Positions 1 to 1,861 of a DNA stretch of 64,000 nucleotides are shown in pieces (positions within the stretch are counted from its first letter, which is position 1; each line of letters opens with the position of its first letter). Origin of the DNA: Prevotella scopos JCM 17725 (GTDB taxonomy: Bacteria; Bacteroidota; Bacteroidia; Bacteroidales; Bacteroidaceae); the NCBI RefSeq assembly GCF_018127785.1, contig NZ_CP072389.1, forward strand, positions 682,001 to 746,000, in the 5' to 3' direction. The position numbers and the translations under genes were made by a program. The notes below the pieces were generated by a model. It was not told the origin of the DNA. It did no database searches and saw only the letters and a list, made by a program, of their open reading frames with translations.

Positions 1-17
1 TCAATAGATTCTGCCAT
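1..17 (-). CDS. 5' end of a gene leaving the window on the left
   Basis: Only the first five codons are visible: an ATG on the minus strand whose complement ends at base 17, reading M-A-E-S-I. A TACTTTTG box of the Bacteroidetes promoter type lies about 50 bp upstream on the same strand, which supports a real gene start. Nothing can be said about the product. Confidence 0.35.
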
Positions 18-219: not shown

Positions 220-1575
220 TTACTTTCTATACTCTGGCCTTAATTCTACCTTTGGCACCTTCATAGTATCACCTGCCTGCATCGTTTTGCGGCCATTGAG
301 AACTTGGAAATAACCAACCATATCGGCTCCGAGTGTCTTACGACTATACTTCTCCATCGTCTGACCTTTCTTCAACACAACAACACGTTCTACACCAATG
401 ATATTGTAAGCACCATAACGAATACGTGGATCATGATTTAATGCTGCAAAAGAATCAACTTTTGCCACCTCTTCCTTTTCAGAATCCTTATGACTTGCTG
501 ATGCCGTTTTTGTTGTGTCTGCAGAGATCGTCTTGGTTCCAACTGAAGAATTATCATCAGTAGCATTCGCCTGTATAGCAACTTCTTTTGAATTCTTCTG
601 AGATTTAGTACTACCCATTCGCAACCAAAGAAAGACGCCAAGACATACTATTACTATAAATGCAATTAGAGCAACCTTCTTCAGCATACCATTTTCAGAA
701 CCATCAACATCATTATCTTCATCAGTAGGAGAAATACAAAGCTCTGAAGCTTTTGGTCGTTCAGTATCTTCTATGAAATCTTCTTTTATTGGCGTCACCT
801 TTTCTTCAGGAACCACAGCAATTGTATCTGCTACTTCTTCAGGTTTAATATCGCACTCTACGACTCCATCTTCTTCCTTTTTAGATTGACCTTGCAACTT
901 CTCTTCAACATTATTTGTTATAGAAGATTCCACTAGTGATTCTGAATTCACCTGTTTCTCTGTAGAAGATAGCGATTCTGTATCATCAATAGACTGGTTG
1001 TTTCGCTCAGGATTCTTTTCAATCTCAACAACGGGTTCTTCTTTTACAGAGATGATTTCAGCCTTATCTTCCTTCTCAGTTATAGTTTCTTTTTTCTGTA
1101 CTTCAGAGATTTCAACCCTAATTTTATCTTTCTTGCCAAGCACATTTTGTTCTTTATCAGAACTAATGACAGTAGAAAGCTCATTGACTTCCGTTATCTT
1201 AACTTCATCAGAAATTTCTTCGGCAGGAACACGCTCTAACTCCTCCGTATCAACACCATCATTGATAACAACTGTTTCGAACTGAGAGAAAGGCTTATTT
1301 ACAAGTTCTTTCATCACGATATCAGGAGTAAAACTTATTTTGTCATGCCCTTCTATTAGCACACGCTCACCCGTATTAACATTAACGCTCTCACGAGGCT
1401 TAACTGCTTGAACCTTAAAAGTTCCCAGTCCTTTAATCTTTACTTGATTACCACTTTTAAGTTCAGAGCTTATTATATTGAAAATGGCATCAACAAAAGC
1501 TGTCGCTTCTGCAGCAGAGAGATTGTATTGCTTAGCTAACGCATTTGTTATCTGTTGTATTATTGTCTTAGCCAT
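220..1575 (-). CDS. HU-domain protein with membrane anchor and LysM-like tail
   Basis: Predicted 451 aa. Residues 1 to about 94 form an HU/IHF fold, with the GLGTF motif and a DNA-contacting arm around PRESVNVNTGE. A long acidic, low-complexity linker rich in Glu, Val, Ser and Lys follows (about 100-290). Next comes one hydrophobic segment (about 297-319, starting LLKKVALIAF in outline and ending WLRMG). The C-terminal stretch from about 396 has LysM-like features: V-x-L-K-K-G-Q-T, an internal VLNGR and a closing AGDTMKVP. The expected topology is HU in the cytoplasm and the LysM-like part in the periplasm. The gene starts 8 bp inside the upstream HU gene and has a good GGAGG ribosome site, so the two are co-translated. 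The domain calls come from sequence pattern; the tethering role is inference. Confidence 0.85.
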   Translation of the reverse strand: MAKTIIQQITNALAKQYNLSAAEATAFVDAIFNIISSELKSGNQVKIKGLGTFKVQAVKPRESVNVNTGERVLIEGHDKISFTPDIVMKELVNKPFSQFETVVINDGVDTEELERVPAEEISDEVKITEVNELSTVISSDKEQNVLGKKDKIRVEISEVQKKETITEKEDKAEIISVKEEPVVEIEKNPERNNQSIDDTESLSSTEKQVNSESLVESSITNNVEEKLQGQSKKEEDGVVECDIKPEEVADTIAVVPEEKVTPIKEDFIEDTERPKASELCISPTDEDNDVDGSENGMLKKVALIAFIVIVCLGVFLWLRMGSTKSQKNSKEVAIQANATDDNSSVGTKTISADTTKTASASHKDSEKEEVAKVDSFAALNHDPRIRYGAYNIIGVERVVVLKKGQTMEKYSRKTLGADMVGYFQVLNGRKTMQAGDTMKVPKVELRPEYRK

Positions 1576-1861
1576 TTTCTTGTCCTCCCTTTCTTACGTG
1601 TCCTTTAATTGTCGCAGCTGGTTTGAAATTAAGAACTAACTTTGGAGGAACCAGCATACGCAAACCTGTTGAAGGATTAACCATCACACGCTCCATACGT
1701 TTCTTCACTTCAAACGTCCCAAAACCAACAACAGGAACAGGGTCGCCTGCTTCAAAGGATTTACCCATCAAGTCAATAACGGTTTTAACCATCTTCTGAC
1801 TTTCATCCTGTGTATATCCAGTTTTTACTGCTAATGCTGCAATGAATTCCTTATTATTCAT
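1568..1861 (-). CDS. HU-family DNA-binding protein
   Basis: Predicted 97 aa, the normal size for a single-domain HU/IHF protein. It has the VVGFGTFEVKKR core and the NPSTG arm with a Pro at the usual position for intercalation between base pairs. It lies downstream of rimO on the same strand, starts after an AGGAG site, and its last 8 bp overlap the membrane-anchored HU gene. The two HU subunits could form heterodimers; that is inference. Which paralogue (hupA/B or ihf) it represents cannot be told from the sequence. Confidence 0.93.
   Translation of the reverse strand: MNNKEFIAALAVKTGYTQDESQKMVKTVIDLMGKSFEAGDPVPVVGFGTFEVKKRMERVMVNPSTGLRMLVPPKLVLNFKPAATIKGHVRKGGQENG

Follow-up and report, generated by a model that had tools for sequence, protein, structure and literature searches.

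To our knowledge, the way in which the chromosome is held and segregated in Bacteroidota has been little studied. The protein described here, HU2, shares with the HU/IHF nucleoid proteins a common HU fold, the PF00216 domain and membership of a dimer-forming family, but differs from them in a long membrane-anchored extension and, in Bacteroidales, in lacking the proline at the tip of the beta-arm, as does one stand-alone HU of the same genome. This arm-tip proline is typical of DNA kinking and does not strictly define HU or IHF. Burroughs, Kaur, Zhang and Aravind reportedly proposed in 2017 a role in chromosome partition for HU-CCDC81 proteins that carry a SPOR domain. Such a protein is encoded in the same genome (L035:713-1747, contig C1 near 763 kb), with HU-CCDC81_bac_1 and HU-CCDC81_bac_2 (PF18174, PF18175), a SPOR match of 23.3 bits against a cut-off of 21, and hydrophobic stretches at residues 22-40, inside the first HU domain, and 194-212, between HU and SPOR. 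These proteins share with HU2 the HU domain or domains, a membrane-type segment and a C-terminus of peptidoglycan-binding type, but they combine two tandem CCDC81-type HU domains with SPOR where HU2 combines one PF00216 HU domain with LysM. In HU2 Pfam gave no PF18174, PF18175 at 25.6 bits, under its cut-off of 35, and no SPOR match at E <= 10, its tail being LysM-like. The notion that in Bacteroidetes an HU protein may be attached to the cell wall has, in general terms, probably been put forward before.

The polar landmark proteins HubP, FimV and TspA offer a likeness of another kind. As described in excerpts of two papers, HubP and FimV have a periplasmic LysM domain, one membrane helix and a large acidic cytoplasmic region; HubP is linked to the chromosome through ParA1, and its LysM domain is needed for placement (PMC8789113, PMC12918733). 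Compared with what these excerpts describe, HU2 likewise has LysM, one helix, an acidic region that would be cytoplasmic and a putative chromosome link. However, its order is opposite, with LysM C-terminal and the HU domain at the cytoplasmic end, and Pfam found no TPR or FimV domain in it at E <= 10. By analogy HU2 may work like HubP, but without a TPR or FimV domain it is not a member of the HubP/FimV group. In Bacillus subtilis, RacA and DivIVA connect DNA to the membrane and influence how the chromosome moves, RacA being a helix-turn-helix protein that reaches the membrane via DivIVA (PMC6593407, excerpt). RacA differs from HU1 and HU2 in not being an HU protein, and the excerpt names no wall-binding domain for RacA-DivIVA. 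Among the matches listed in a search of the open-licence PMC literature, titles and abstract openings describe no HU-LysM protein, and the listed matches describe neither the HU1/HU2-LysM unit nor its age or asymmetry.

Results

The window, a stretch of 64,000 nucleotides from Prevotella scopos JCM 17725, carries near its start two overlapping genes on the minus strand. HU1 (1568-1861) encodes a 97-residue HU protein (PF00216, E 7.8e-23) with a proline at its arm tip (VNPSTG), and HU2 (220-1575) encodes a protein of 451 residues that combines an HU domain, a transmembrane helix and LysM. The stop of HU1 and the start of HU2 overlap by 8 bp (1568-1575), as the ORF coordinates show, in agreement with the first-pass annotation of the window, which had described HU2 as coupled to an HU gene by this overlap. 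A Shine-Dalgarno-like GGGAGGA (1583-1589, minus strand) lies within the end of HU1, 7 bases 5' of the HU2 ATG, and its position fits translational coupling from HU1 to HU2 if the motif works as such. HU2 is no chance frame, since homology at E <= 1e-3 holds for 7877 of the 7999 candidates scored, although many of these may share the HU domain only, and every one of the 120 homologues listed covers the query by 100%. The full coverage of the 120 listed matches and the long ORFs found in many genomes also rule out an assembly error. Upstream of the pair, on the same strand, are genes for a RimO-type radical SAM protein and an FtsY-type SRP GTPase, and downstream, mostly past the window, are genes for a MoxR-type AAA ATPase, DUF58, VWA/BatA and TPR proteins (all named from their families, the upstream ones by Pfam). 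The MoxR, DUF58 and Bat-type VWA/TPR genes, from window positions 1-17 onward, follow the pair on the same strand and possibly form an aerotolerance-type operon.

The N-terminal HU domain of HU2 (residues 7-93; 1297-1557, minus strand), which would be cytoplasmic, matches PF00216 at E 4.3e-22, with 78.6 bits against a cut-off of 22.4. It matches HU/IHF structures, the best being 2iie at 2.6e-11, and the AlphaFold model gives the HU fold with its beta-arm (element order H-H-E-E-E-E-E-H, pLDDT about 90). The arm tip reads VNVNTG (residues 64-69; 1369-1386, minus strand), with Val66 at the position where HU1 has proline. An acidic disordered linker follows (about residues 97-295; 691-1287, minus strand), and residues 95-299 hold 57 D/E versus 24 K/R with pLDDT mostly below 50. 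A single transmembrane helix (residues 296-321; 613-690, minus strand) is modelled with pLDDT about 90 and contains the only hydrophobic segment of a Kyte-Doolittle scan (residues 300-318, mean 2.74). Behind it, a second linker that would be periplasmic (about residues 322-389; 409-612, minus strand) has pLDDT below 50 at 329-364 and a helix at 368-379. The intact HU fold, the acidic linker of about 200 residues and the one membrane segment, all claimed earlier from the letters, are thus borne out by these searches, counts and the model. NCBIfam also gave SAG1386_EF1546 for residues 298-369 (3e-4; 20.8 bits, cut-off 80), which was rejected as arising from the membrane segment and the residues beside it.

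Assignment of the C-terminal LysM domain (about residues 390-445; 241-408, minus strand) needed a family profile, because on the window protein alone Pfam gave no PF01476 match, whether it was run with the full sequence at E 10 or with the tail at E 1, and NCBIfam gave no LysM. Among relatives, PF01476 is reported for 10 of the 25 family tails (E <= 1, the best at 4e-5) and for 3 of the 21 full-length proteins (E <= 0.01), the scores in both cases not being set against the cut-off. A profile of the family tails matched 22 PDB sequences at E <= 1, with E. coli Kbp as the best (1.2e-12); "LysM" appears in the molecule names of nine of them, and others, such as Kbp, LytE and Ecp6, are LysM proteins too. 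The AlphaFold model of residues 377-451 shows a beta-alpha-alpha-beta fold with a mean pLDDT of 87, and LysM structures are among its best matches. Mitoribosome and phage baseplate chains stand near the LysM rows in both the Foldseek and the VIA-align lists, a chromodomain also in the former, and by these scores of the tail alone the family is not named. On profile and model together, the C-terminus of HU2 is a LysM fold that would putatively bind GlcNAc-containing glycans. Kbp is cytoplasmic and binds potassium, and since it is the best PDB match, LysM does not prove wall binding. The first-pass annotation of a LysM-like tail therefore has a mixed outcome: the blank Pfam result on the window protein, taken alone, comes close to overturning it, whereas the Pfam matches of relatives, the profile and the modelled fold uphold it. 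Alignments of Prevotella-type tails (47 of 77 plus the window protein's) and full proteins (51 of 64 plus the window protein) also show a conserved stretch around GAYxIxG ahead of LysM. In Prevotella dentasini (L056) the HU2 frame stops before the tblastn match ends and its tail is unlike LysM, which may be a frame break or an assembly fault.

The sidedness of HU2 was assessed by counting K+R in the 15 residues that flank the helix at each end. Among Prevotella-type proteins, 40 of 77 have more K+R on the N-side and 20 have fewer, with 17 ties, which is a weak bias. In the Bacteroidales set the N-side is richer in 16 of 21 and poorer in 3, and in Balneolaceae it is richer in 25 of 27 and poorer in 1. 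Sign tests gave 0.013, 0.004 and 8e-7 in the same order, on relatives that are not independent. The counts were made without the window protein, without L056, L107 and L109 (77 of 80) and without L001 and L012 (21 of 23), the segment of L012 lying just below the scan threshold. The window protein itself leans slightly the opposite way, with 1 K/R and 6 D/E in the 18 residues before the helix and 3 K/R and 1 D/E in the 16 residues after it. Because of the K+R bias and the single hydrophobic segment, an orientation with HU inside and LysM outside (N-in/C-out) is likely for the family, with the window protein leaning slightly against it. The topology first predicted for HU2 is therefore favoured by its relatives, but not by its own flanks.

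The distribution of HU2 was followed with a profile of 21 of 23 order-level proteins, leaving out L006, which is cut at the locus end, and L015, which has an unresolved start. Within the same family (Bacteroidaceae), 141 of 151 genomes match this profile at E <= 1e-12, some over part of its length only. In the order it matched 40 of 198 genomes at the same threshold, a few of them through short HU-only or tail-only matches, and in the class 10 of 296 at E <= 1e-20, all ten in the same order. A phylum sample gave 105 of 296 at 1e-12, mostly short HUs, and its long HU2-type frames were confined to the own family (3 genomes) and to the family f142 (30 genomes, counted from the listing), with a locus for examination in 27 of the 30. 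One f142 protein is 93% identical to a protein of Gracilimonas sediminicola (Balneolaceae, NCBI phylum Balneolota), from which we infer that f142 as a whole is Balneolaceae. The searches scored few first-look candidates per genome, which makes absences soft. The order HU-linker-helix-LysM, as originally proposed, is kept well beyond Prevotella.

By profile search every one of the 129 loci has HU1 beside HU2 and on its strand, counting 22 from Bacteroidales, 80 named Prevotella-type ones and 27 from Balneolaceae; plain tblastn found HU1 at 79 of the 80 named loci and missed it at L056. These loci were fetched for holding HU2, so the counts mean that HU2 was never seen without HU1 and do not imply the reverse. 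In 91 of 129 relatives the overlap of the two genes is 1, 4, 8 or 11 bp, and nine computed overlaps of at least 136 bp were taken as mis-picked starts. All 80 named loci have rimO upstream, and 54 of them have moxR downstream in the same orientation as the pair; moxR is not near the pair in the other 26, one of which, L054, ends too early to tell. With flanks of about 1.5 kb, 8 of the 22 Bacteroidales loci show rimO and 15 show moxR, and neither gene was found in the 27 Balneolaceae loci. A wider view of four Bacteroidales and four Balneolaceae loci shows other genes flanking the pair (names assigned by eye). An account of the adjacency by a shared operon only is weakened by these varied neighbours, several of them named by eye. 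HU1 looks like a co-inherited partner of HU2, judging from gene order.

A tree of HU domains was built from the pairs of the window, Bacteroidales and Balneolaceae, 10 of the 80 Prevotella-type pairs and two stand-alone HUs of the genome, over about 90 columns; 120 domains remained after two HU2 rows were dropped for having over 12 gaps. All 60 HU1 fall in one clade (support 0.88) and all 58 HU2 in another (0.95), and each clade holds both Bacteroidales and Balneolaceae. This is moderate evidence that the HU1/HU2 division of labour predates the split between the two groups, or that both genes were transferred together; it is only moderate because the tree has two outgroup HUs and about 90 columns. 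The earlier label of HU1 as a normal HU is too simple, since HU1 groups with other HU1 proteins and not with the genome's two stand-alone HUs, which are the sole outgroup; an ordinary HU was rejected on this tree, with its outgroup of just two. A role for HU1 as dimer partner of HU2 fits both the adjacency and the two-clade tree.

The two proteins also differ in their arms. All 129 HU1 carry the arm-tip proline, as do all 27 Balneolaceae HU2, and no HU2 row of the two Bacteroidales sets shows it (0 of 22 and 0 of 80); nine of the 102 Bacteroidales HU2 rows are gapped at this column, probably through a start picked too late, and were scored as not proline. Mean net arm charge for HU1 is +4.7 in Bacteroidales, +4.2 in the Prevotella-type set and +3.6 in Balneolaceae, and for HU2 +0.9, -0.3 and +0.5. 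Over the whole domain, mean net charge of HU1 is +0.07 in Balneolaceae versus +6.9 and +3.5 in the other two sets, and because it is about neutral a strong DNA grip is ill-suited to Balneolaceae HU1. The arginine at arm position 58 of HU2 is kept in 20 of 22, 76 of 80 and 27 of 27 proteins. A stand-alone HU of the genome itself, L026 (C1 near 622.6 kb), also has an arm tip without proline, so this loss is not special to HU2. Bacteroidales HU2 may not bind DNA, because it has no arm proline and a near-neutral arm. The asymmetry agrees with a heterodimer in which HU1 is the DNA-gripping half, but also with an HU2 that no longer binds DNA.

Discussion

These data are read most economically as an HU1/HU2 dimer that is anchored in the wall and keeps DNA at the envelope. 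HU proteins fold as dimers, and for this reason HU2 would pair with HU1, presumably co-translated with it. HU1, with its basic arm and proline, would give most of the DNA grip and HU2 the anchor; the acidic linker would serve as a long, DNA-repelling spacer, and the helix would place LysM in the periplasm, where it would grip peptidoglycan. Such a complex would keep DNA near the envelope, for nucleoid positioning or for timing segregation with division. A comparable logic, seen in the HU(CCDC81)-membrane-SPOR protein of this genome and in HubP and FimV, speaks for this reading. We are inclined, by a little, to believe that the asymmetric dimer is a tether of nucleoid to peptidoglycan, the kind of link that the first-pass annotation had surmised for HU2, and that this wall-anchored complex is the product of an old two-gene unit.

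One challenge to this reading concerns what the HU domain of HU2 does. The HTH-type domain of RodZ binds MreB, and HU2 might similarly have lost DNA binding and become a protein-binding module on a wall-anchored scaffold, with HU1 as a separate ligand or adaptor. We regard this as unlikely, although the absence of the arm-tip proline from all 102 Bacteroidales HU2 rows (nine gapped) and the near-neutral arm speak for it, as does the resemblance of the acidic linker to the protein-recruiting acidic region of HubP, as given in the excerpt (PMC8789113). Against it, all 27 Balneolaceae HU2 carry the proline, the arm arginine 58 is kept (20/22, 76/80, 27/27), and every locus examined also encodes an HU1 with a basic arm.

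The gene neighbourhood suggests that HU1/HU2 could instead be a membrane-bound regulator, which reads the state of the envelope via LysM and controls nearby genes such as a Bat-type operon. Such a role would be in keeping with moxR, which comes right after the pair in the same orientation at 54 of the 80 named loci, and with the DUF58, VWA/BatA and TPR genes that follow in this genome. However, moxR is missing near the pair in 26 of the 80 (L054 ending too soon), in 7 of the 22 short-flanked Bacteroidales loci and in all 27 from Balneolaceae, and the HU family, IHF excepted, binds with little sequence specificity; we give this explanation little credence. It seems just as improbable to us that LysM lies in the cytoplasm, or binds a target other than peptidoglycan as Kbp does, which would leave HU2 attached to the membrane with no wall tether. 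Kbp is the best PDB match of the tail, and the window protein has more K/R after the helix than before it, but the family K+R bias points to N-in, and a single helix after an N-terminal domain of cytoplasmic type leaves the C-terminus outside.

Returning to the wall-anchored dimer, a wider proposal can be made, which we offer tentatively and find possible rather than probable. Bacteroidales and Balneolaceae may share an ancestral, dedicated nucleoid-to-wall tether, a heterodimer of HU1 as the DNA-kinking half and a wall-anchored HU2 half, the latter without the kinking proline in Bacteroidales; a cell would have it alongside an HU(CCDC81)-SPOR tether and would anchor its chromosome directly to peptidoglycan at two kinds of site. 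A direct DNA-to-peptidoglycan link within one protein would be unusual. Should this be true, bacteria throughout a mainly gut and oral family have made a wall anchor out of HU, a nucleoid protein that is very common.

Two minor observations concern the spread of HU2 among the sampled genomes. The genus g304 gave no HU2 match in five of six genomes (G526, G545, G562, G577 and G588), while G599 has one. At G663:C1:2776858-2777912 the HU2 match is split over two ORFs of 178 and 203 residues, possibly a broken or divided gene.
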